36,246 nt of DNA, taken from assembly GCA_947632235.1 (NCBI GenBank), contig CANROO010000004.1:1-36246 (forward strand). Direction: 5' to 3'. Below are positions 4,502 through 19,735 of this stretch, piece by piece. Source of the stretch: an uncultured Clostridia bacterium. Lineage in GTDB: Bacteria; Bacillota; Clostridia; Lachnospirales; CAG-274. The position numbers and the translations under genes are program-made. The notes below the pieces were generated by a model. The model was not told the origin of the DNA and searched no databases. It saw only the letters and a program-made list of their open reading frames with translations. The number at the start of each line of letters is the position of its first letter. Within the stretch, counting starts at the first letter, position 1.

Positions 4502-5272
4502 CTACAGCTCGGCAAGAATAATTGCCTCCTGTTTTTTGATGTTTTTAAGTCCCAGATATATATATGTAATCTGAAGTCCCCAGTAAACTATGAATGTACT
4601 CATTCCTGCAATGCCTATAATAAGCATGAGCAGGGCAGGGAATGTTCTGGCATATATCGAAAGCTTGAAAGCGCCCGAAAATCTCATGTCGGCATGTATA
4701 AATATCGAATTTATGCACATTGTTATAAGCGAAAGAATGAGAAGCGAAAAAAGTGTGCCTATGCATATTCCTATAAGATTTGTAACTGCATATATGACAA
4801 ACAGAGCAAGCTTCATTCTTTTGCTTGAAAAAAGCTCCACAAGCCCTTGTTTATCAAAGCTTTTATCGCTGAATTGGCTGAATTCGATTACATTTTTCTG
4901 AATATTGTTGCCTATTATAAGCTTATCGCTGTCGGCGAGAAGATAGCTTGTAAGCCCCGTTGTGTCGATATTGTTTACATCCTCGTTGTTGTCGATGTAT
5001 ATTTTTACGCCCATCATTTCATCGTAAAAATCTATGCTTTCACAGCTCAGCTTTCCGTTCTTTATGGAAAACTCGGGAACATTGTCGCGTATGAGTCCCG
5101 ATATGCCCCCTATCCTGTAATAGCCCACGGCAACGGGAAGCTGAGAGATCATGCAGACAAGCAGTGAAAACACAACTATATAGCCCGCTGTCCTGCCCGT
5201 GCTCAGAAGCATAAGCCTGGGATATTCCTTGAATTTATATATTGCCGTCATCATCTGTTTAAAAAAGCTCAT
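4502..5272 (-). CDS. DUF1189-type integral membrane protein
   Basis: Architecture MSFFKQMMTAIYKFKEYPRL... with N-terminal TM, extracellular segment and several C-terminal TMs resembles DUF1189 proteins. Confidence 0.65.
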   Translation of the reverse strand: MSFFKQMMTAIYKFKEYPRLMLLSTGRTAGYIVVFSLLVCMISQLPVAVGYYRIGGISGLIRDNVPEFSIKNGKLSCESIDFYDEMMGVKIYIDNNEDVNNIDTTGLTSYLLADSDKLIIGNNIQKNVIEFSQFSDKSFDKQGLVELFSSKRMKLALFVIYAVTNLIGICIGTLFSLLILSLITMCINSIFIHADMRFSGAFKLSIYARTFPALLMLIIGIAGMSTFIVYWGLQITYIYLGLKNIKKQEAIILAEL

Positions 5273-5326
5273 ATTGCCCTCCGTAAAAATAACTTTATTA
5301 TATTATATAATAATATATCATATTTT

Positions 5327-6430
5327 TTAATATTTTACAAATATCTTTCTTTCGGATTTATTAAATCCTCCCGCCCGTATCCTGCAGAAACCGCTGTTGA
5401 CATAGCTGTGCTCCAGAGAAAGCCTTTCCGCAGTGTCATTTGCCACAAGCACGCTGTCATTTGAAGCATATGCCACATAGGGCGTTCTGCTCCAGTATCT
5501 GTCGCCCGAAAGCATATTGACGCACTCGCAGAGAGTGTTTGCAAGCATACCGTTTTCGGTTATCCTGTAATTACAGCTTACCGTGCCGTCATGCTCTTCG
5601 ATACGGCTTATATAGTTTACCGCTCCCACGTTGCTGTGATCAGCGGCGAGGGAATAAAGCTTCTTTATTTCGTCCGAGGCCTCCTCATAGAGATAACAGC
5701 AGCCGTCTATTGTGAAGTTTGGCACGCTTATATTGAGCATTACCGCCTTGTCCTTGAAGTAGGCGCACTTGCCTGCGGCGTTTTCGTATTCGGAGGCGAT
5801 GTTATTGTTTTTTGCGCTCTCCTTAATATCTATGGCTACCCAGTCCACATATCTTTCATCGGGGAAGGAAAAGCTCATATCATCCGAGTCTATGCCGTAA
5901 ACAAGGGCAGTCTTGGGCGCAAGCTCCCTGAATGTCCTCGCACAGAACTCATATGTGTGCCTGTCCTCTGTCTTAAGCTCCGCAAGCATGGGAATATCCA
6001 GATCTCCGCAGACCTTTGCAATGTCGCGCGCACGGCTTATGTCACAGCCGTCTTCGGTTATAATAAAGGGTATCTTGCCCTTGGCGTAGGTATTTATGAC
6101 CTCGGAGGAAGGAAAATCGCCCGAGGACGGCACAAGGCTTATATAAATATCGTTTCGTATACCCGTTTTTTTCTCAAAAACATCTATATCCGAATAAAGA
6201 GTTTCCTCGTGTATATACGCTCCCTTCAGGCATTTTTCGCCCTCGAGAGGGGCCTTCTGCCTTTCGGTGCGTATATAGATCTGATAAGGCTCATACACCG
6301 GCTTGGGCTTTGCGGTCTCTTCCGTATTTGCCGAGCCCAAAAGGCCGAATAAAAGCGCAAGGACAATAAGCTTCAATTCTTTTCCTCCCTGAGATAAGTA
6401 TTTATTGCCTCCAGATAATGCACGGGACAC
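5327..6430 (-). CDS. Exported TIM-barrel/glycoside-hydrolase-like protein of unknown function (true start probably near 6376, KLIVLALLFGLLGSANT)
   Basis: Signal-peptide-like N-terminus; ordered beta/alpha pattern (IPFIITEDGCDISRARDIAKVCGDLDIPMLAEL; PKTALVYGIDSDD; YVDWVAIDIKE) like GH26-type proteins. Confidence 0.55.
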   Translation of the reverse strand: MSRALSGGNKYLSQGGKELKLIVLALLFGLLGSANTEETAKPKPVYEPYQIYIRTERQKAPLEGEKCLKGAYIHEETLYSDIDVFEKKTGIRNDIYISLVPSSGDFPSSEVINTYAKGKIPFIITEDGCDISRARDIAKVCGDLDIPMLAELKTEDRHTYEFCARTFRELAPKTALVYGIDSDDMSFSFPDERYVDWVAIDIKESAKNNNIASEYENAAGKCAYFKDKAVMLNISVPNFTIDGCCYLYEEASDEIKKLYSLAADHSNVGAVNYISRIEEHDGTVSCNYRITENGMLANTLCECVNMLSGDRYWSRTPYVAYASNDSVLVANDTAERLSLEHSYVNSGFCRIRAGGFNKSERKIFVKY

Positions 6431-6909
6431 CCGTTTTTATTGCTCACCATATATCTTTTTTCAAAGGCGGAATACGGCACGGACTTGCGTCCGCCGTTCT
6501 GCGCCTCCCTCCAGTATTTTTCCATGACCTCGAAGGGGAGGAAATAATATTCCTCCTCATCTGCGCAGTGGACAAGCAGAAAGGCTACACCGCCCTGTCT
6601 CTGGAAATGCTCCATAAATTCCACCTGATGGGCGTGTATATTCTGCAGAGGGAGCCTGCCCTGCTTTGTTTCCTTGGCGTCAAAGCAAATGGGTATACCC
6701 TGTGCGGCGCCTATGTAGTCTATTGTAGACTTCCGGTCAAAGTAGGCAAGAGTGATGACATTTTTGCCCTTGTCCAAGTTTATAGGAGTTATAGGCGTCG
6801 GTATCTTCTGTATTATTGCCAGACCCCTCTCCTTATATACATTGTTTGTCATATTTATCATTTCCTCGAAGCTGCTTCCGCGCAGTCCTCTTGAATTCCA
6901 GTAGCCCAT
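6373..6909 (-). CDS. recU: Holliday junction resolvase RecU
   Basis: N-RGLRGSSFEEMINMTNNVYKERGLAIIQKIPTPITP, STIDYIGAAQGIPICFDAKET, HQVEFMEHFQRQGGVAFLLVHC. Confidence 0.93.
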   Translation of the reverse strand: MGYWNSRGLRGSSFEEMINMTNNVYKERGLAIIQKIPTPITPINLDKGKNVITLAYFDRKSTIDYIGAAQGIPICFDAKETKQGRLPLQNIHAHQVEFMEHFQRQGGVAFLLVHCADEEEYYFLPFEVMEKYWREAQNGGRKSVPYSAFEKRYMVSNKNGCPVHYLEAINTYLREEKN

Positions 6910-6911
6910 AA

Positions 6912-7889
6912 CTATTGCTCCCTTATTTTCAAAACGGCATATTCCGCCGCAGACCTAAGCTGTTCGGACGGACTTGTCAAAAAGCGCGAGGCAAGCTCAA
7001 CGCCTCTTTCATCTCCCATATTTCCGAGGACCGCAAGGGCGTTTCTTTTAATCACGCTCCTGCCCCTCCAGCCCGCGGCCGTTCTGCCGTAAGTATTCAT
7101 AAACTCTTTTTCCGTCATGTCAAGAAGCTTTTCTATGTCGGGACAGGCGTATTCGCTTTCACCCTCCTTATATACTGCGTTATGCGGACACACCCTCTGG
7201 CACACATCACAGCCGTATATCGAACATCCCATTGCCGAATATTCATCATATGTAAGTGCGCCTTTTTTCTGAGTGATGTAGGAAATACATTTTGTATGCT
7301 CGCACCTGCCGTCATCAAGCGCCGAGTTGGGACATGCCTTAACGCACTTGTCACACTCACCGCACATATCGGCATAAGCCGTGTTCTTATGCCCTGCCGT
7401 AAAATCTGCATCCGTAAGCATATAGCCTATAAAAAACATACCTCCTATATCCTTGTTTATAATGCTTCCGTTCCTTCCCCGTATGCCGAGGGCGCACCTT
7501 TCGGCAACAGCCCTGTCCGAAAGAGGTCCAGTATCCGTGAATATCATGGCGTTATGAGAGGGTATGAGCTCCGCGCGGAGCCTTTCAAGCTTTTCTTTTA
7601 TGATAATATGATAATCCGTGCCCACGGCGCCCGAGGATATTTTTCCCCTCAGCCTGCCGTCATTTATAGGCTTATACACAGTGTTGTAGGAAAGACCTAT
7701 GCAGACTATGCTTTTTGCCTCGGGCATGGTGAGAAGAGGCTCCGTGCGCCTTTCAACGCTGAAGCTTACAAAGGGCACGCTCCTGCCCTCAAGCTCGGCC
7801 TTAAGCTCCGTAAAGCTTTCCGCTCCGCCCGCTCCGGCAATGATATTCTCTTTTTTTGCAAAGGCCTGCATATCCTCATATAAACTCAT
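6912..7889 (-). CDS. queG: Epoxyqueuosine reductase-like iron-sulfur protein
   Basis: Two 4Fe-4S motifs (CGECDKCVKACPNSAL; CDVCQRVCPHN), RLRAELIPSHNAMIFTDTGPLSDRAVAERCALGIRGRNG, C-terminal HEAT-like tail. Confidence 0.9.
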   Translation of the reverse strand: MSLYEDMQAFAKKENIIAGAGGAESFTELKAELEGRSVPFVSFSVERRTEPLLTMPEAKSIVCIGLSYNTVYKPINDGRLRGKISSGAVGTDYHIIIKEKLERLRAELIPSHNAMIFTDTGPLSDRAVAERCALGIRGRNGSIINKDIGGMFFIGYMLTDADFTAGHKNTAYADMCGECDKCVKACPNSALDDGRCEHTKCISYITQKKGALTYDEYSAMGCSIYGCDVCQRVCPHNAVYKEGESEYACPDIEKLLDMTEKEFMNTYGRTAAGWRGRSVIKRNALAVLGNMGDERGVELASRFLTSPSEQLRSAAEYAVLKIREQ

Positions 7890-7977
7890 GGCTTTTCCTC
7901 TTGAAGACTATATTTATTTAATTTTAACACATTTTTGCAAAAAGTAAAATAGCATAAAGCTTATTTTGTTAAATCTA

Positions 7978-8006
7978 TTGATATTTTTAACATATTATTG
8001 TATAAT
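7978..8006 (+). promoter_or_regulatory. Sigma-A-type promoter for ybaB-recR-thyX
   Basis: TTGATA - 17 nt - TATAAT upstream of ybaB RBS GGAGG. Confidence 0.65.
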
Positions 8007-8042
8007 AATAAGCAAATTAATTCAGATTTGGAGGACAGAAAT

Positions 8043-8390
8043 ATGGCAAAAGGCGGATACGGCGGAATGGGAGGCTTCGGCGGAATGAATATGAACAATA
8101 TCATGAAGCAGGCTCAGAAGATGCAGAAGCAGATGGAACAGGCTCAGCAGGACCTCGAAGCAAAGGAATTTGAGGTGACGAGCGGAGGCGGAGCAATAAA
8201 GGTGGTCATTACGGGCAAGAAGGTAATAAAATCGATAGAGATAAGCCCGGATGTTGTGGATCCCGATGATGTTGAGATGCTCCAGGACCTCGTTATGGCG
8301 GCTGTGAACGAAGCGATACGCCAAGCAGACGAGGCGGCAACAAACGCCATGGGCGGTATAGCAGGCGGTCTGGGCGGAGGACTTTTCTAG
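8043..8390 (+). CDS. YbaB/EbfC family nucleoid-associated protein (start ATG 8043, not 7998)
   Basis: [60 protein letters not shown]; the 7998 start lies inside the predicted -10/-35 region. Confidence 0.95.
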
Positions 8391-8402
8391 GAGATAGATA
8401 CT

Positions 8403-8999
8403 ATGAATTACTACGGTGAATCTGTCGCAAAGCTTATAGAGCACCTTTCAAGGCTTCCCGGCATAGGCGGTAAGTCCGCGCAGAGGCTTGCCTTCCACAT
8501 AATAAATATGCCCAAGGAGGAGGCAGAGGCTCTTGCCGAGAGCATAACAAAGGCAAAAAATGAAGTGAAATACTGCTCCGTATGCTGTAACCTCACCGAC
8601 AGCGATCCCTGCGCGGTATGTTCAAGCGCAAAGCGCAGGCGCGACACCATAATGGTGGTGGAAAACCCGAGGGATATGGCGGCATACGAAAAGACAAAGG
8701 GCTATGACGGGCTTTATCACATACTCCACGGCGCAATAGCCATGACAAAGGGAATAGGCCCCGAGGACATAAAGATAAGGGAGCTTGTGAACCGTCTTGA
8801 CGAAAGTGTGAAGGAGGTCATAATAGCCACCAACCCCACCGTTGAGGGCGATGTGACGGCAGTGTATATAAGCAAGCTCCTGAAACCGCTCGGTATAAAG
8901 GTGACAAGGATAGCGAACGGCGTGCCTGTGGGAAGCGACCTTGAATATATAGACGAGGTGACGCTTTCAAGAGCGCTCGAGGGCAGAAGCGAGATGTAA
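8403..8999 (+). CDS. recR: Recombination protein RecR
   Basis: [38 protein letters not shown] zinc finger, Toprim [33 protein letters not shown]. Confidence 0.97.
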
Positions 9000-9018
9000 A
9001 ATACGAAAGGAAAACAAA

Positions 9019-9648
9019 ATGAAAGTCATTGAACCATACTATGTTATAGAAGAGGAAATAGATGCTCAGAAAATAATGAAGACCATAGAGCGCGCCGGAA
9101 GGACCTGCTACAAAAGCGAGCAGAACATTGCAGACGGAAGCGCAGAAAAATTTATAACGAACATACTCAAAAGAGGTCATGAGTCCGTGATAGAGCACGA
9201 AAAAATAACCGTCAGGTTCATATGCGACAGAGGCGTCACTCATGAGATGGTAAGGCACAGAATAGCCAGCTACTCGCAGGAGAGCACACGCTACTGCAAC
9301 TACGCAAACGACAAATTCGGCAATGAGCTCACATTCATAGACCCCTGCTTCTGGGACAAGAACGACCCCGAGGACAAGGCAAAATACGACATATGGGAAA
9401 GGGCTATGCAGAACATAGAAAAAGAGTACAACGAGCTTATAGCCCTGGGCGCAAAGCCCGAGGAGGCAAGAAGCATACTTCCCAACAGCCTTAAAACGGA
9501 AATAGTCGTAACAATGAATATGCGCTCGTGGCGCCATTTTTTCAGGATGAGGACAGCACCCAACGCTCATCCCCAGATAAGACAGGTAGCAAACGCTCTG
9601 CTTGAGGAGTTCAAGGAAAAGCTCCCCGTGCTTTTCGGCGATCTGTGA
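9019..9648 (+). CDS. thyX: Flavin-dependent thymidylate synthase ThyX
   Basis: ThyX signature RHRIASYSQESTRYCNY; HESVIEHEKITVRFICDRGVTHEMVRHR; WRHFFRMR. Confidence 0.96.
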   Translation: MKVIEPYYVIEEEIDAQKIMKTIERAGRTCYKSEQNIADGSAEKFITNILKRGHESVIEHEKITVRFICDRGVTHEMVRHRIASYSQESTRYCNYANDKFGNELTFIDPCFWDKNDPEDKAKYDIWERAMQNIEKEYNELIALGAKPEEARSILPNSLKTEIVVTMNMRSWRHFFRMRTAPNAHPQIRQVANALLEEFKEKLPVLFGDL

Positions 9649-9773
9649 TAAATACTATAGTCATAACATTGACATTGCTTCATACCCGCAAATTTTTTTG
9701 AATTTACACTTTATTTTAAATGGGATTTGAAGTATAATCAAAGTATATAAAATATTTAAGGAGGCGTATTATT

Positions 9774-12224
9774 TTGAGATCCAAAATTTTAAGCAAAAAG
9801 GCAATAGGAATGCTTCTTTCCGCTGTGATGCTCACTTCTGCATGCATAGGCTTCAACAGCTATGCCGTTACTGCAGAGGAAAGTGCTGCGGCGCCTGCTG
9901 CCGAGACAGTTACAATAACAGAGAGCTCGGGCTGGCATGAGAGCGCTTATGTAAAATGGAGCCCATACACGGGCGCAGAGGGCTACAATGTATATGTAAA
10001 GCCGGCAGGCGGAGAATATACTAAGCTTGATGATATGCTTGTGAGAGAATACAAGACATACTGCAGAGCAGATGCTCTCGGACTTTCCGCAGGCGAATAC
10101 ACAATGAAGGTAGTTCCCGTTGTATCGGGCAAGGAGGATGCTTCATTAGCTTCCGAAACAACTGCTCTTACGGTCGACAACTATGTAAGAGAGGGCTTTG
10201 CATTTTCCGATCAGTCCCCCGCAAAGTACACTACGGGCGCTTATAATCAGGACGGTACATTAAAGGCTGACGCAATTGTGCTCTATGTTACCGATGCCAA
10301 CAGAGACAGCGTGACAATAAAAGGTCAGGAGACTCTCGGCGAAGGTCTTAACGCCATTATGTCAAAAGCCAAGAATTTGAGCGTACCTCTCGATGTAAGA
10401 CTTATAGGCAAGGTAAGAAGACCTGCAAACATAAACTTGGATTCCACATTAAGAGTGCAGGATGTAAAGAATGTGACAATAGAAGGTGTGGGAGATGACG
10501 CCACACTCTATGGCTGGGGAATAACTCTCAAGAGAACCAACAATATCGAGATAAGAAATGCCGCAATAATGTGGCACTGCAACGGCACCGACGGCGACGC
10601 CATATCTATGGATACGGAAAACTTCAATATATTCGTACACAATATGGACTTCTATTACGGCGCTCCGGGCGCAGAAGAGGACCAGAAAAAAGGTGACGGC
10701 ACCGTTGACATGAAGCAGATGACTGACTATGTAACAATTTCCTACAACCATTTCTATGATACGGGAAAATCTACATTCTCGGGCGGTCAGTGGGAATTAA
10801 ATAACAAGACAGACCCAAGAGCAAAGGTAAATGTTACATATCACCACAACTGGTTTGACCACTCCGATTCGCGTCACCCAAGATGCGTAGTGGGCAACAC
10901 ACATGTATACAACAACTATTATGCAGGCAACGGCTACGGCGCTGCGGCATGCGAAAACGCTTCCGTATTCGTTGAAAGCAACTACTTTGAAAACTGTGAA
11001 ATGCCCATGATGATAGGCTCGCAGGGAAGCGATTCCTACAGAGGCAAGGGATCATACAGCGGAAGCAAGAACCTTTCAAATCAGGACGGCGGTATGATCA
11101 AGGAATACGGCAACTACATGACGGGTCAGGGCACATTCTTCAATCAGAACAACTGCGAAGTGAGCGGTCAGATAGATGCTTACAGCGTAACCGACCCCAA
11201 GGCAAAGGTGCCCGAGAGCATACAGGCTTTAAAGGGCGGCTGGGCCTACAACAACTTTGATACCGCAGACACAATGTACAGCTATACACCCGACACTCCC
11301 GAGCAGGCAAAGGCAAATGTAATATCGGGCGCAGGCAGAATGAACGGCGGAGACCTCAAGTGGGAATTCACCTCAGCCGACAATAAGAACGGCGCAGTTA
11401 TAGAAGGTCTTAAAAATGCCATTGCCAACTACAGCACGGAGCTTGTTAAAGCAGGCGGAGTAAGCGTAGAGGGAGCCGAACCCGAAATGCCTACCGAGGG
11501 CACTACGGAAGCAGTTGAGGACGGAGGAGCTCTCAAGGACGACAAGGTATGGGATATTTCAAAGCTTTCAACAGACACCGTTGACGGTATTCGTTTCGGC
11601 GAAGCAGGCGCCTACCACACAGGCAAAAACACTTATATTTCCGAGGACAAGCACTCATATGAAATAGACGGATATTATACAGGCAGTGAAAATCCCAAAA
11701 CTGCCGATAATGCAAATCCTTCCGGAACAGCAGTACCCGTTACGGGCAGCTTCCTCTGTGTTACCGCTCCTGATGACGGAGTTATAACAACGGCAATGAG
11801 AACAGGCAATGACAAGATAAGCTATGTATCCGACGGCGCAAATATCATCAAAGAAATAAATAACAAGAATAATCCCAACTACAGCTTTGATGTTGTGAGC
11901 TTTGACGCAAAGAAGGGCGTTGACTACTATATCTACACGGACGGCTCAAAGATAAGAATAGCATACCTCGGCTTCACGGCAGGCGGACAGGGCGGAACGG
12001 AGCCCGAGCCTGCAGAACCCGACTGGGGCGATGCGGACGGCAACGATACCGTTGATGTGAATGATGTTCAGTTCACTCTTGATTATGTGCTTACCGGCAA
12101 TACAACAGGCATTACGGAAGAAACCGCTTCGGGACTTGATGTAAACAATGACGGAAAGGTAGACTCCGAGGATGTTGCTATGATACTCCAGAAGGTACTT
12201 GACAGCAGCTACACAATAAAATAA
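9774..12224 (+). CDS. Secreted pectate lyase (PL1-like beta-helix) with N-terminal FnIII-like domain and C-terminal dockerin
   Basis: TTG start with RBS AAGGAGG; signal peptide; NVTYHHNWFDHSDSRHPRCVVGNTHVYNNYYAGNGYGAAACENASVFVESNYFENC (pectate lyase); GDADGNDTVDVNDVQFTLDYVL...LDVNNDGKVDSEDVAMILQKVL (dockerin). Confidence 0.92.
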   Translation: MRSKILSKKAIGMLLSAVMLTSACIGFNSYAVTAEESAAAPAAETVTITESSGWHESAYVKWSPYTGAEGYNVYVKPAGGEYTKLDDMLVREYKTYCRADALGLSAGEYTMKVVPVVSGKEDASLASETTALTVDNYVREGFAFSDQSPAKYTTGAYNQDGTLKADAIVLYVTDANRDSVTIKGQETLGEGLNAIMSKAKNLSVPLDVRLIGKVRRPANINLDSTLRVQDVKNVTIEGVGDDATLYGWGITLKRTNNIEIRNAAIMWHCNGTDGDAISMDTENFNIFVHNMDFYYGAPGAEEDQKKGDGTVDMKQMTDYVTISYNHFYDTGKSTFSGGQWELNNKTDPRAKVNVTYHHNWFDHSDSRHPRCVVGNTHVYNNYYAGNGYGAAACENASVFVESNYFENCEMPMMIGSQGSDSYRGKGSYSGSKNLSNQDGGMIKEYGNYMTGQGTFFNQNNCEVSGQIDAYSVTDPKAKVPESIQALKGGWAYNNFDTADTMYSYTPDTPEQAKANVISGAGRMNGGDLKWEFTSADNKNGAVIEGLKNAIANYSTELVKAGGVSVEGAEPEMPTEGTTEAVEDGGALKDDKVWDISKLSTDTVDGIRFGEAGAYHTGKNTYISEDKHSYEIDGYYTGSENPKTADNANPSGTAVPVTGSFLCVTAPDDGVITTAMRTGNDKISYVSDGANIIKEINNKNNPNYSFDVVSFDAKKGVDYYIYTDGSKIRIAYLGFTAGGQGGTEPEPAEPDWGDADGNDTVDVNDVQFTLDYVLTGNTTGITEETASGLDVNNDGKVDSEDVAMILQKVLDSSYTIK

Positions 12225-14413: not shown

Positions 14414-15532
14414 TTATTTCAAATTTTTATTAAAGAAATCTTCTATCTTATCAAAAGGTATTTTAGACACATCATCATACAGATCAATATGCATTGCGCC
14501 GGGAACAACATATAATTCTTTGGGCTCTGCCGCTTTTTTGTAAATTTCTTCGCTTATAGAGCGTGAATGCGCTATGTCGCCCGTTATCATAAGCACGGGA
14601 CGAGGCGAAATGCTGTCTATATGGTCAAGCAGTGAATAGTTTAAAAATGACTGCATGCTTGAATTTGTAAAGCTGCCGCCTGCATTTGGATGCCAGCCGC
14701 GCTTAAGCCCATAGAATGTCCACCATTCAACATCAACACCCGTCAAGTTGTCGAGCAATTCATCAAGAGGTGCATTTTCGGGATAGGTGCGTTTATATGC
14801 AGGCTCTCCCGTTTCAAAGTCGTTCCAGCGTTGCTCGGATATGCCCTTAAGTATATTGTTTCTTGTTTCATTATCCATTGAATTGCCCATTCCGCTTATA
14901 TCATACATCGCAGATGTTACCACAGCTTTTATTCTTGTGTCTTCTGCTGCAGCAGAAAGGGCAAAGCCGCCGCTTCCGCATATGCCCAATGCTCCTATTT
15001 TTTCTCTGTCAACATAATCCAATGAGCCCAAATAATCTACTCCCGCGCTGAAATCCTCCGTAAATATCTCGGGAGAGGAAAGATGACGAGGCTCGCCGCC
15101 GCTTTCTCCGTTGTATGACGGATCAAATGCAAGCGCAACAAAGCCTCTCTGCGCAAGCTGATTTGCATAGACTCCCGGTCCCTGCTCTTTTACACCGCCG
15201 TATGGAGGGCCTATAACTATTGCAGGATATTTTGAATTTTTATCCATGGTCTTTGGAGTATACAGATCGCCTGCCAATTCAATGCCATAGCGATTTTTAT
15301 AAGTGACCGATCGCCTGTTTACACTATCGCTCAATTCAAAGATATAATAATCTTCACTTTCCTTAGCCGTATTGGGATCAACTGTTTCATTGTCTTTTAC
15401 CGTTATCATTTTATTATCTCCGTTCCATTCAACATTCAATCCAAGATTTTCGGATATAAATCTTATAGGTACCATTGTAGTGCCGTCTGTAATAACAGGC
15501 GGGTTTTCAAGCTGAGTTTCTTTTCCGTCCAC
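14414..15532 (-). CDS. Alpha/beta hydrolase (dienelactone-hydrolase-like) with N-terminally truncated CuAO_N1 'stalk' domain; possibly a 5'-truncated gene
   Basis: DGTTMVPIRFISENLGLNVEWNGDNKMITV (second half of a CuAO_N1 domain) followed by hydrolase PAIVIGPPYGG...LGICGSGGFALSAAA...PVLMITGDIAHS...GAMHIDLYD. Only a GTG start, no signal peptide, in-frame stop 12 codons upstream. Confidence 0.75.
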   Translation of the reverse strand: MDGKETQLENPPVITDGTTMVPIRFISENLGLNVEWNGDNKMITVKDNETVDPNTAKESEDYYIFELSDSVNRRSVTYKNRYGIELAGDLYTPKTMDKNSKYPAIVIGPPYGGVKEQGPGVYANQLAQRGFVALAFDPSYNGESGGEPRHLSSPEIFTEDFSAGVDYLGSLDYVDREKIGALGICGSGGFALSAAAEDTRIKAVVTSAMYDISGMGNSMDNETRNNILKGISEQRWNDFETGEPAYKRTYPENAPLDELLDNLTGVDVEWWTFYGLKRGWHPNAGGSFTNSSMQSFLNYSLLDHIDSISPRPVLMITGDIAHSRSISEEIYKKAAEPKELYVVPGAMHIDLYDDVSKIPFDKIEDFFNKNLK

Positions 15533-15671: not shown

Positions 15672-15817
15672 TGTTATATGATATATTAAAAGGCAGTTAT
15701 GCTTACAAAGCAGAATACTTTAACTCATTAAACACAGGCTTTCCAAAACCTTGATTTTACTGTTTTTTAATAAAGCATTCCATAAAACATATGACAATAA
15801 AGGTGAGGAGTGATAGC

Positions 15818-17386
15818 TTGGCACAAAAAAACGACAAAAAGGATAAAAAGGATGATCTGCTGCGTGCAGGAATAGCAGGGGCATTATATGAGACCATACA
15901 GAGATATGGTTCGGCCGCCAAGGAGCATTTGGTAGGATATTCCGGGGTTGATAATGAAACAGGAAAGCGTTTGCAAAAAAGCTTAAAAAGTATTCGGGAG
16001 CAAAAAACAAATGACGAATATGCTTTTCCCATACGGCAGCAAAAGGCCGGCTGGGCGGCAGAGGTCAAGGATACGGCTTCTTCAAATGCAGAAAATATCA
16101 TTGCCGGCAAAAGCAACAGAAAAATAAGGCATGATGATTTGCCCGATACGCCGGCAAATCATATATTATTTGATCATGTGGAGGTTGATACGGACGGTAA
16201 TATTATTGCCGGCTCGGGAAGCCAGATGAAGTTTATCGGAGCATCTGCAAACGATCCTACGGGTGCGGGTAATGCCGAAAGAGCATTAAGTAAATTACAG
16301 TCTAAGGATTTTCAAAAGTATATAGATAACGATGTAAAGATAGAAGTGCCTAAGGATGAATATCCGCAGATGATCGCCAAGGCAACAGAGGAGATCGGCT
16401 CTTTGCAGAAACAGCTGGAAAGAGTAAGGGCAAACGGAAATGCTGAGGCAGCGGCGGCATTAGAGAAGAAGATCGATAAATTAAATAAATTAAAAAAGAA
16501 CCTCAGACCAAGTAAGCTTACAAGAAAGCAATCCTTGGAGGCTGTTGATGCTCCAAAGCTTTCGACAATTAAAAGTGTTGCAGGTATCTCACACAGGGCA
16601 GGAATAGAAACGGCAAAAACGTCGGCAAAAATCGGCGGAAGTGTTTCGCTTGTGAGGAATATAGTAAGTATATACCGTGGAGAAGCCGAGGTCGATGAGG
16701 CGGCACAGAATGTTGTAAGGGATACTGCCGGAGCAGCGGCATTAGGATATGGTACCGGTTTTGCCGGTACGGCAATAAAAGGCGCAATGCAGAATTCAGC
16801 ATCGGAATATACCAGAACGCTTTCAAAAACAAATGTCCCGGGCACAATTGTTGCAGTAACTGTCAGTGCCTCAAAAACTCTTTCAAGGTATTTTAAAGGA
16901 GAAATTGACGCAGTACAGTGCTTGGAGGATTTGGGAGAACAGGGCAGCGGTATGATCGCCTCCTCAATGTTTACGGTCATAGGACAGGCGGCTATACCTA
17001 TCCCCGTTGTGGGAGGACTGATAGGCGGTATGATAGGCTATGCATTATCGTCGGCTGCATACGGTGTGCTGACGAGCTCATTAAAGGAAGCAAAGCTTGC
17101 ACATGAAGAAAGGCTCGCAATTGAGAAGGCCTGTGAAGAACACATAAAAATGATACGAGAGTACAGGACGCAGATGAATGAAATAATAGAAGAATATTTG
17201 TCTGCCAATTTAGAAGTCTTTAATGCTTCATTTTCCGGTATCAAGGCTGCCTTGGATATAGGGGATGTTGATCTGCTTATAGAGAGCGCAAACAGCATAA
17301 CAGCTTCTCTAGGCGGAAATAAACCGTTTGAAACGGCGGATGAATTTAATGACAAAATGCTGACGGGCAAAGCTTTTAAAATTTAA
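15818..17386 (+). CDS. Uncharacterised 522-aa protein with coiled-coil middle and C-terminal glycine-zipper hydrophobic segment (cassette gene 1)
   Basis: TTG start with GAGG RBS (MAQKNDKKDKKDDLLRAG); coiled coil around IGSLQKQLERVRANGNAEAAAALEKKIDKLNKLKKNL; hydrophobic IGQAAIPIPVVGGLIGGMIGYALSSAAYG. No family recognised. Confidence 0.85.
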   Translation: MAQKNDKKDKKDDLLRAGIAGALYETIQRYGSAAKEHLVGYSGVDNETGKRLQKSLKSIREQKTNDEYAFPIRQQKAGWAAEVKDTASSNAENIIAGKSNRKIRHDDLPDTPANHILFDHVEVDTDGNIIAGSGSQMKFIGASANDPTGAGNAERALSKLQSKDFQKYIDNDVKIEVPKDEYPQMIAKATEEIGSLQKQLERVRANGNAEAAAALEKKIDKLNKLKKNLRPSKLTRKQSLEAVDAPKLSTIKSVAGISHRAGIETAKTSAKIGGSVSLVRNIVSIYRGEAEVDEAAQNVVRDTAGAAALGYGTGFAGTAIKGAMQNSASEYTRTLSKTNVPGTIVAVTVSASKTLSRYFKGEIDAVQCLEDLGEQGSGMIASSMFTVIGQAAIPIPVVGGLIGGMIGYALSSAAYGVLTSSLKEAKLAHEERLAIEKACEEHIKMIREYRTQMNEIIEEYLSANLEVFNASFSGIKAALDIGDVDLLIESANSITASLGGNKPFETADEFNDKMLTGKAFKI

Positions 17387-17399
17387 AGGAGGAAAAACA

Positions 17400-17957
17400 G
17401 TGGATAACAGAAAACAAGCCAAGCTGTACTATCTGTACATGATGTCGGACGGCGATGTATCCGACGGCGAGACTGAATTATTTGATAAAATATGTGCGGA
17501 ATTATGCTTGGATGCGGACGATAAAAAGAGCATCATGCAGGAGTGTATCGAAATAGTCAAAAATAAAAATTTGACTTGTATCGAGGTTGCAGAAAAGAAT
17601 GCAGAGGAAGCTTATATAGACAGAATATTAGATATCGGCCTTAATGAATATGCTTCGGAACAAAGTAAAGCTAATATATTATGGAATTTGATAAATTTGG
17701 GATATGCGGATTCTTATTTTACATTTAATGAAAGAGAGATCGTAGACTTTCTGAGGAAATATTGGAAGATCCCGGACAGCTTATATCATGAAATGCTCGA
17801 TATTGCCGAAACCTGTCTGGCTCTTGAAAAACACAGGCTGTGGATAGAGGGATTGCCGGATACGAAATACAGATCGGAAAAGCTCAGACAGGTTAAAGAT
17901 GATTTTAAGTATGTACAGGAAACGATATTTACAACTATTTCAGAGATCGATTTTTAA
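17400..17957 (+). CDS. TerB-like protein (cassette gene 2)
   Basis: GTG start after AAAGGAGG; LYYLYMMSDGDVSDGETELFDKICAELCLD resembles the TerB-like acidic helical motif. Confidence 0.75.
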   Translation: MDNRKQAKLYYLYMMSDGDVSDGETELFDKICAELCLDADDKKSIMQECIEIVKNKNLTCIEVAEKNAEEAYIDRILDIGLNEYASEQSKANILWNLINLGYADSYFTFNEREIVDFLRKYWKIPDSLYHEMLDIAETCLALEKHRLWIEGLPDTKYRSEKLRQVKDDFKYVQETIFTTISEIDF

Positions 17958-17971
17958 AGGAGGAAGCTCAT

Positions 17972-18985
17972 ATGCCTATACCATTATTTTTTATTGCCGT
18001 AGGTGCAGGTACGGCTTTATTCGGAGCAGGAAAAGGGATCAAAGCCGGTATTGATCAGAAGGAGGCCGGTGACATAAATCATGCTTCGGAGCGCAGAGCT
18101 GAGCATGCAAAGGAAATGGCTGATAAAAGCCGAAAAAATTGCGGTGAGGCTATCGATAAGCTTGGTGAAAGAAAGGTCGCCGTGCTCAACGGAAGCATAA
18201 AAATGTTTATCTGTGAGTTTGAAAAATTGAATCATGTTGAGCTGAGCGGATCAAGCGGACTGAACGAACTGCAGAAATTAGTTATAGATAAGAGATCCTT
18301 TTCAGATCTGAAGGAATTGCAGGGCATGGCCTCATCATTGGCAGGCGGACTGGTTTCCGGAGCTATGGCGGGAGCGCTCACGGCATTTGGTGCATATGGT
18401 GCGGCAGGTGCATTGGCAACCGCTTCTACGGGAACGGCGATCGCCTCACTGAGCGGAGCTGCGGCAACAAATGCGACTCTGGCATTTTTCGGGGGAGGCT
18501 CCTTGGCGGCAGGAGGACTCGGAATGGCAGGAGGTACAGCGATATTGGGCGGTTTGGTCGCCGGCCCTGCTTTAGCTGTTTTGGGAGCTGTGATGAGTGC
18601 AAAGGCTTCAAAAAATCTTGAGGCAGCAAATGCAAATCTGGCAAAAGCAAAGGAGTTTGAAGAGGAAATGAAAACTGCGGCGGCCTTGTGCAATGGTATC
18701 AGAAGACGTTCCGCAATGTTTGACAGATTCTTGATAAGACTTCAGACCATTTTCGATCCTTTGGTATATAAAATGTCTGAGATCATAAGGGAAAAAGGAA
18801 ATGATTTCAGAAAGTTTTCGGATGAAGAGAAAAATGTCGTTGCATCGGCCATGTCTTTGGCAGGTGCGATAAAGGCTGTGTTGGATACGCCTATTCTCGA
18901 TGAAGACGGAAATCTTACAAGGGAATCCGGCATGGTCATCGAGGACACTCAAAAAAGGATAGAGGAAATAATTTATGATGTTTGA
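17972..18985 (+). CDS. Glycine/alanine-rich predicted membrane protein (cassette gene 3)
   Basis: ATG after AAAGGAGG; long Gly/Ala hydrophobic core GLVSGAMAGALTAFGAYGAAGALATASTGTAIASLSGAAATNATLAFFGGGSLAAGGLGMAGGTAILGGLVAGPALAVLGAVMSAK flanked by charged helices. Confidence 0.8.
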   Translation: MPIPLFFIAVGAGTALFGAGKGIKAGIDQKEAGDINHASERRAEHAKEMADKSRKNCGEAIDKLGERKVAVLNGSIKMFICEFEKLNHVELSGSSGLNELQKLVIDKRSFSDLKELQGMASSLAGGLVSGAMAGALTAFGAYGAAGALATASTGTAIASLSGAAATNATLAFFGGGSLAAGGLGMAGGTAILGGLVAGPALAVLGAVMSAKASKNLEAANANLAKAKEFEEEMKTAAALCNGIRRRSAMFDRFLIRLQTIFDPLVYKMSEIIREKGNDFRKFSDEEKNVVASAMSLAGAIKAVLDTPILDEDGNLTRESGMVIEDTQKRIEEIIYDV

Positions 18986-19238
18986 GTGTGACAAATGCGG
19001 ACTATGCTGCCGTCATATTGATTTGATACCTCAGATTAAAGAATTTGATACCGGAAACGGCCGATGCATTCATTTGTCAGAAAACAACCTGTGCAGAATA
19101 TATCCGGACAGACCTGAAATTTGTAATGCGGAAAGAATGTACGAATTATATTTCAAGGATAAAATGTCCGAAGAGGAATATGTTTGCTTAAATAAGCTGG
19201 GGTGCATCAGGCTGAAAAAGCTTGACGGCAACGGTTGA
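18975..19238 (+). CDS. YkgJ-type cysteine-cluster protein (cassette gene 4)
   Basis: CDKCGLCCRHI...GRCIHLSENNLCRIYPDRPEICNAERMYEL, typical YkgJ pattern; start overlaps the end of gene 3. Confidence 0.8.
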   Translation: MMFECDKCGLCCRHIDLIPQIKEFDTGNGRCIHLSENNLCRIYPDRPEICNAERMYELYFKDKMSEEEYVCLNKLGCIRLKKLDGNG

Positions 19239-19347
19239 AAACAAAAACGGTTCAACAATGGTGCCTCTCAGGTTTGTGTCGGAAGCCCTCGGAGCAGAGG
19301 TATCATGGGACGGAAATAATAAGGTTATAACAATAAATATGAAGTAA
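19216..19347 (+). pseudogene. Remnant of the C-terminal half of a CuAO_N1 'stalk' domain
   Basis: Frame without a start encodes SLTATVENKNGSTMVPLRFVSEALGAEVSWDGNNKVITINMK*; lacks the domain N-terminus and overlaps the 3' end of the YkgJ gene in another frame. Confidence 0.75.
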
Positions 19348-19365: not shown

Positions 19366-19397
19366 AAAAGGGCTTTCCCGAAAGGAAGCCCTTTCTG
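19366..19397 (+). terminator. Terminator-like hairpin, copy 1
   Basis: AAAAGGGCTTTCCCGAAAGGAAGCCCTTTCT. Confidence 0.6.
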
Positions 19398-19614
19398 CGT
19401 GTCGATAAAATCGACACGCTTGAAAGAAATTTCAGAACTTTTGCCTAACGGCAAAAGCCACAGCTAACGCTGTGTCCGAATTATTCTTTCGGTTCAAAGC
19501 ATTGCATTTCTTTCAGTTAGGCTAATGTAGGAACCAGCCGTGTTTTCTGAATTTTGGTGAATAAATCACCAAAATTCAGAAAAGTTCCTGTCCTCGGAGG
19601 AAGTGAATTCCTCC
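19397..19614. repeat. Hairpin-dense intergenic element
   Basis: Perfect stems at 19397-19419, 19438-19457, 19459-19474, 19476-19492, 19543-19583 (18 bp) and 19596-19614. Confidence 0.6.
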
Positions 19615-19701
19615 TGCGGATTTTAGTCTGCGACGCTTTTTGGGTCGTACAAACTATTCAGTCTTTCATTTTTTGTGTCAATTTATACTTTTTCGACAGT
19701 C

Positions 19702-19735
19702 TGAAAGGGCTTTCCGGAAAGGAAGCCCTTTTTAC
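19702..19735. terminator. Terminator-like hairpin, copy 2 (near-identical to 19366-19397)
   Basis: GAAAGGGCTTTCCGGAAAGGAAGCCCTTTTTAC; T-tracts on both strands. Confidence 0.7.

Follow-up and report, generated by a model that had tools for sequence, protein, structure and literature searches.

Comparison with Described Defence Systems

Several systems described to date resemble a four-gene cassette encoded in a 36,246-nt stretch of DNA (hereafter, the window) of an uncultured Clostridia bacterium of the order Lachnospirales. PDC-M09 is one of the PDC families, candidate phage-defence families that were predicted by "guilt by embedding" and are mostly unvalidated according to a 2026 survey (PMC12988326). 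Bunzi, a named system whose mechanism is unknown, has TerB listed for it (PMC10952713). Shango, composed of TerB, an ATPase and a helicase, is a TerB-containing operon with demonstrated anti-phage activity (PMC10250203). The cassette occupies positions 15818-19238 and consists of four co-directional open reading frames (ORFs), denoted here as B (gene 1), T (gene 2), A (gene 3), and C (gene 4), whose features are listed in Table 1. The reading we prefer, and to which we give about an even chance of being correct, is that it is a horizontally acquired immune operon, tethered to the membrane and with a nuclease as its effector, representing a TerB-plus-Cys-cluster variant of the predicted PDC-M09.

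The proteins encoded by genes 3 and 1 match the PADLOC profiles PDC-M09A (E 2.5e-26, positions 38-267 of 282) and PDC-M09B (E 1.7e-15, positions 66-440 of 480) over most of their length, and the two genes belong to one operon with one gene between them, in agreement with the composition of PDC-M09. In the initial annotation, made from the DNA alone, neither gene was ascribed to a nameable family, which is now superseded; the anti-phage role proposed there as one option fits, since both genes match this predicted system. The window cassette differs from PDC-M09, itself a prediction, by two further genes, TerB and CxxCxxCC, whose place in the order is fixed. No paper naming PDC-M09 was found in a literature search.

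The relationship to Bunzi is through a sister branch that shares the C-terminal domain of B, TerB and gene 3 with the window and whose members carry a BnzB-like domain (E 4.6e-42); the PADLOC BnzB profile covers the middle of B proteins of the M48 type (E about 1e-42). A Gly-rich protein of ~180 residues is encoded beside BnzB in most of the inspected loci that have BnzB. One such neighbour (locus L140), with no PADLOC match at E up to 1e-10, bears a weak Gly-hairpin resemblance to gene 3 according to a local hidden Markov model (HMM; E 9.8e-8) and to profile-profile comparison (E 2.6e-4, probability 42%). Moreover, two loci contain single ORFs of ~700 amino acids (aa) in which a BnzB-like domain is fused to a gene-3-like Gly hairpin (L006, 1183-3306, and L007, 882-2924, both on the minus strand); in view of these fusions, B and A probably act together. 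The window cassette itself was rejected as a Bunzi system: no PADLOC match to BnzB was found for any of the four proteins, the hhalign probability for the gene 1 alignment against BnzB-type proteins was 0.4%, and no match to BnzA was found in the cassette at E up to 1.

Other systems are more distant. The HNH-type B proteins of two loci (L049 and L051) match PDC-M40B (2.3e-60 and 3.1e-34, respectively) and are encoded beside relatives of genes 3 and 4; however, they have another N-terminal nuclease motif, and the window-type C-terminal domain was not detected in them. Shango is likewise a TerB-containing operon, but the window cassette has no ATPase or helicase gene, such domains being absent from all four proteins in Pfam, NCBIfam, and PADLOC scans. 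Similarity to LeoBC/LeoA/LeoB and JukA from PADLOC is weak (E from about 0.03 to 2e-7) and largely confined to Gly-rich parts, and no GTPase domain was seen in the cassette. Searches with genes 1 and 3 in Pfam, NCBIfam, and PHROGs yielded nothing useful past coiled-coil or Gly-zipper noise, and most matches of genes 1-3 in PDB profile searches were to coiled coils or due to chance (e.g., PDCD10 and MEH1), with TerB reached only at E 0.047.

Operon Structure, Conservation and Distribution

The most likely start of gene 1 is the TTG codon at 15818-15820, preceded by AGGTGAGGAG; an in-frame ATG at 15791 is a possible alternative, and residues of gene 1 are numbered from it throughout. Gene 2 starts with GTG. 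The spacing is 13 nt between genes 1 and 2 and 14 nt between genes 2 and 3, while genes 3 and 4 share 11 nt; this compact organization and the ribosome-binding sites of genes 2 and 3 are as given in the initial annotation, in which the four genes were singled out as an accessory cassette. Its claim of an unusual codon choice holds for leucine, as TTA and TTG account for 53/100 (53%) of Leu codons in the cassette vs 93/581 (16%) in the 19 other window genes (p=2e-17, chi-square test on six Leu codons), with a share of 0.44-0.56 in individual cassette genes and a maximum of 0.42 in any other gene of the window. For isoleucine, ATC is indeed raised (25/87, 29%, vs 58/570, 10%, elsewhere in the window; p=3e-6, three Ile codons), but within the cassette ATA still outnumbers each of the other Ile codons.

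Scans of the window's order and of named genomes provided about 90 distinct loci, with arrangements counted after removal of duplicates. The order B-T-A-C occurs at 14 loci, the window and 13 others, in Bacillota, Spirochaetota, and Synergistota; the four genes thus do co-occur elsewhere, whereas a lack of such co-occurrence had been named in the initial annotation as refuting its reading. The remaining arrangements are B-T-A (50 loci), B-A without T (7), T-A (6), rearranged B/C/A (4), and other or incomplete (11). The median gap is 12 nt both in 64 B-T pairs and in 70 T-A pairs, and A and C overlap by a median of 4 nt. Since the identical gene order and tight spacing recur in unrelated genomes, the arrangement exceeds chance. 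In two of the loci without TerB (L074 and L076, Prevotellaceae), gene 3 is directly followed by a DUF3944 gene; in L076 the presence of a separate M48 peptidase gene upstream of B-A was confirmed, and L074 has an alike gene.

Most of the hosts are Bacillota from gut and rumen, the others being Spirochaetota, Synergistota, Bacteroidota, Actinomycetota, Campylobacterota, Lentisphaerota, and Pseudomonadota. In the window's order, gene 3 has some match, often a weak one, in 37/395 genomes, and a match at E < 1e-80 in 11 of the 395, the window's genome among them; a protein 86% identical to gene 3 was found in a different family of the order (f6, the window belonging to f1). Several phyla are scattered on the gene 3 tree, a quick tree with some long branches, although genome bins and paralogues can mimic transfer. 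The scattering, the patchy distribution, and the foreign codon usage together support horizontal spread of the cassette. No relatives of genes 1 and 3 were found in the phage collection searched, viral contigs gave three weak gene 3 matches only, and relatives on plasmids were limited to few matches; the cassette is therefore unlikely to be phage-borne.

In 15 loci, genes of WYL-type regulators, whose domain has been tied to defence regulation (PMC4012209), are found close to the operon, in most cases at position -1 or -2; 10 loci have a short helix-turn-helix (HTH) gene directly upstream. In an Azospirillum relative, the run consists of a RecD-like helicase, DUF3320, WYL, B, A, a gene of unknown function, and an annotated PD-(D/E)XK protein. 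At E up to 1e-10, 143 PADLOC families were matched by 115 neighbour proteins vs 50 by 115 control proteins, but the families are concentrated on few proteins and allow no firm conclusion on enrichment. JukA was matched by three neighbour proteins. Thus, as to the gene-neighbourhood check put forward in the initial annotation, conserved synteny was found, whereas enrichment near defence genes is suggestive only.

Gene 1 Encodes a Putative Nuclease with an Exchangeable N-Terminal Domain

Window-type gene 1 proteins (alignment A7, 31 homologues) share an N-terminal domain of ~115 residues. Nine of its residues, E91, D115, D128, G136, Q145, K147, G150, K176, and Y177, are identical in 29/29 homologues compared, some of which are just 31% identical overall to the window protein. 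In the AlphaFold2 (AF2) model (mean predicted local distance difference test score, pLDDT, 71), they are situated on or beside the helix 75-105, the strands 110-113, 129-132, and 144-146, the helices 162-169 and 172-179, and the strand 183-186. The order of elements is helix-strand-strand-strand-helix-strand, mostly at good confidence (pLDDT about 71-95). An alpha-beta-beta-beta-alpha-beta order combined with an E...D...(D/E/Q)xK residue pattern is that of PD-(D/E)XK nucleases, and E91, D128, Q145, and K147 supply its residues in all 29 proteins. The domain is therefore a putative one of the PD-(D/E)XK nuclease type, as judged from residue conservation and the model. With this domain, and with HNH motifs at the corresponding place in relatives (see below), the statement of the initial annotation that the cassette has no recognisable nuclease is probably wrong.

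Further downstream, gene 1 encodes a glycine-zipper-like hydrophobic segment, where confidence of the model is low; one homologue weakly matches Pfam Gly-zipper_Omp. The last ~110 residues form a helical C-terminal domain, which a local HMM detects in 84 B proteins and which is common to B proteins with differing N-terminal domains. The region ahead of it varies among relatives, with TerB and gene 3 being retained. First, an HNH-like motif (invariant D, H, N, N, and N) occupies the corresponding position in L049, L051, L053, L114, and the second B protein of L041; the best PDB profile matches of these proteins are mostly to Cas9 HNH domains and are not significant. Second, at 35 loci, B carries the BnzB-like domain instead, often with an M48 peptidase ahead of it. 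Third, TerB and gene 3 of the same kind are accompanied by a kinase-domain protein in L045. Mapped on the gene 3 tree, the five N-terminal types of B require at least seven changes, vs a minimum of four. This comparison shows a constant core, made up of the C-terminal domain of gene 1, the TerB protein, and the Gly-rich gene 3 product, with an exchangeable N-terminal domain of gene 1. The L041 locus has two related systems in tandem, one coding for a 259-aa gene 3-like protein and a 510-aa HNH-type B (5122-7463), and the other being a complete B-T-A-C (7592-11048).

Gene 3 and the Possibility of a Pore-Forming Effector

The gene 3 model contains two long helices (residues 21-85 and 216-275) on either side of a Gly/Ala-rich segment, which is the most invariant part of the family (alignment A5, 84 sequences). 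Hydropathy analysis bears out the Gly-rich hydrophobic cores reported initially for both gene 3 and gene 1 (Table 1). The natural reading of the model is that gene 3 would form a hairpin that inserts into the membrane and is carried by a coiled-coil stalk.

Such an architecture could also make gene 3, along with the gene 1 glycine zipper, the killer itself, that is, a depolarising pore triggered by infection, the variable N-terminal domain of gene 1 then serving as a sensor or trigger that, e.g., binds phage DNA or protein. The pair of long helices flanking a hydrophobic segment with 53% Gly+Ala suits this explanation, as does the constancy of gene 3, the greatest in the family. The highest-ranking of the weak Foldseek matches are alpha-pore-forming toxins, ClyA (probability 0.30) and SmhB (0.25), and NCBIfam alpha-xenorhabdolysin A matches gene 3 at 0.022; however, none of these matches is significant (E 0.5-0.7 for those from Foldseek, which are not evidence alone), and the whole-chain Foldseek output is dominated by helices. 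Furthermore, swapped enzymatic domains (PD-(D/E)XK, HNH, and M48) are more typical of effectors than of sensors. The pore-effector explanation is thus second to that of a nuclease effector, and we consider it unlikely.

TerB and Cys-Cluster Proteins

The gene 2 product alone scores 18.1 bits against TerB (PF05099), under the gathering score of 24.4 bits, but 65/67 members of its family match this profile (E up to 0.1, the best being 1.7e-8). Two D-x6-E pairs, D17/E24 and D104/E111, are kept in 62-63 of the 67 homologues each; we take these residues to be those of the TerB metal site. By family-wide profile matching, gene 2 belongs to the TerB family, and by its own match above the cut-off gene 4 is a member of the CxxCxxCC family PF03692, so that both the TerB-like and the YkgJ-like assignments made at the outset are upheld. 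Eight cysteines of the gene 4 product (C5, C8, C11, C12, C31, C40, C50, and C77) are invariant in nine homologues.

Gene 4 accompanies 16/32 nuclease-type loci vs 0/35 BnzB-type loci (Fisher p=5e-7), and its relatives have so far been seen only beside gene 1 proteins of other than the BnzB type, mainly nuclease-type ones. The proposal that it is a dedicated partner of the nuclease type was nevertheless downgraded, as the tree gives only one independent pair on well-supported branches.

The presence of TerB and CxxCxxCC families would also agree with a Ter-type module for envelope or metal stress, in which these two proteins would act as sensors of metal or redox stress, with protection or remodelling of the membrane left to genes 1 and 3. 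TerB has been classed among ligand-binding Ter domains that are possible signal sensors (PMC7824862), and the Ter stress response has been linked to metal sensing (Anantharaman et al., 2012, as cited in PMC7824862). However, reading of the neighbouring ORFs by eye revealed no typical ter genes, and the patchy, horizontal distribution, WYL regulators, nuclease-like domains, and matches to PDC-M09 and BnzB suit defence better; stress response is accordingly a rather improbable function.

A toxin-antitoxin or plasmid-maintenance module, with the gene 1 nuclease as the toxin and gene 4 or gene 2 as the inhibitor, is very improbable: the small neighbours of a nuclease-like gene and the relatives on plasmids would agree with it, but of the 32 nuclease-type loci 16 lack gene 4 and 10 lack gene 2, so neither can be an obligate antidote, and the operon comprises three to four conserved genes, some of them large.

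Proposed Mechanism

In the immune operon with a nuclease effector that we favour, gene 3 would build a stalked assembly with its Gly/Ala-rich tip in or on the inner membrane, where it would sense phage damage or entry. The TerB protein would link this assembly to gene 1, which would be anchored there by the glycine zipper and the C-terminal helices and then activated. The PD-(D/E)XK-like domain would cleave DNA, either the incoming phage genome or that of the host (abortive infection), and the Cys-cluster protein could be a metal-dependent accessory, maturation factor, or brake. Anti-phage activity is what we infer for the operon; an ordinary housekeeping role is unlikely.

Several observations weigh against this interpretation. 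Neither gene 1, compared by Foldseek with PDB and viral libraries, nor gene 3, compared with PDB, has a significant match, so that both the nuclease fold and a pore fold are left unconfirmed. No nuclease match was found for gene 1 in Foldseek, PDB-profile, or Pfam searches, and since no library search confirms the fold we infer the nuclease assignment from residues and element order. The tip of gene 3 is modelled at low confidence. Gene 4 is absent from half of the nuclease-type loci, and its link to that type is not phylogenetically independent. The scan of neighbour and control proteins is not a clean test of enrichment, and the literature search revealed no report of any member assayed against phage.

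On a broader view, PDC-M09, PDC-M40, and Bunzi could be branches of one previously unrecognised modular immunity class, in which an interchangeable effector (PD-(D/E)XK, HNH, M48 protease with BnzB domain, or kinase) is armed by a membrane sensor of the Gly-hairpin type together with TerB as coupler, the window cassette being the nuclease form with a metal-binding Cys-cluster subunit. We regard this unification as plausible, with somewhat less than an even chance of being right. If the favoured reading of the cassette is right, an unvalidated defence candidate would gain a testable mechanism with named catalytic residues, and would be tied to Bunzi and to TerB, long suspected in phage defence; enzymatic domains exchanged around an unchanging membrane core would provide a new case of modular effectors acting at the membrane.

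Table 1. Coordinates of the cassette genes and their features in the window.
Feature	Position	Strand	Evidence
Gene 1 (B, PDC-M09B-like): N-terminal putative nuclease domain, glycine-zipper segment, helical C-terminal domain	15818..17386	+	PADLOC, 31-homologue alignment, AF2
Putative PD-(D/E)XK-type domain, gene 1 residues 75-190	16013..16360	+	E91, D115, D128, Q145-x-K147, K176-Y177
Glycine-zipper-like hydrophobic segment, gene 1 residues 385-432	16943..17086	+	Kyte-Doolittle peaks 1.65-1.74
C-terminal helical domain of gene 1	17039..17383	+	Local HMM
AAAGGAGG ribosome-binding site of gene 2	17385-17392	+	Sequence
Gene 2 (T), TerB family	17400..17957	+	Pfam TerB E 0.0034
AAAGGAGG ribosome-binding site of gene 3	17956-17963	+	Sequence
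Gene 3 (A, PDC-M09A-like): Gly/Ala-rich segment between two long helices	17972..18985	+	PADLOC, AF2, alignment A5
Gly/Ala-rich conserved segment, gene 3 residues 126-213	18347..18610	+	53% Gly+Ala, hydropathy peak 2.11
Gene 4 (C), CxxCxxCC (YkgJ-type) protein	18975..19238	+	PF03692 E 7.8e-8, 33.3 bits vs cut-off 23

Possible Insertion Site and Flanking Repeat

The cassette lies between two fragments of a copper-amine-oxidase-type stalk, at 14414-15532 and 19240-19346. Upstream, the hydrolase gene begins within a stalk domain and lacks a signal peptide; past gene 4, the plus strand encodes what remains of the C-terminal part of a stalk (VENKNGSTMVPLRF...ITINMK). These fragments may mark an insertion or rearrangement. 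In a genome of the same genus (G016), the end of phoR abuts dapF, whereas in the window dapF is 13 kb off (about 19763 and 33098); another genome of this genus (G015) has other genes after phoR. The spot beside phoR is thus a site of rearrangement or insertion, and a clean empty site was rejected, since phoR adjoins different DNA in each same-genus genome.

Just downstream of the cassette (19392-19709) there is a dispersed intergenic repeat with 81 matching pieces in the window's genome and no match in an Rfam search. The element is ~250-310 bp long and is present in roughly 30 or more copies, several of them at contig ends. The copy in the window contains ~70 nt missing from most copies, and a perfect 18-nt inverted repeat (19543-19583) is part of the element.

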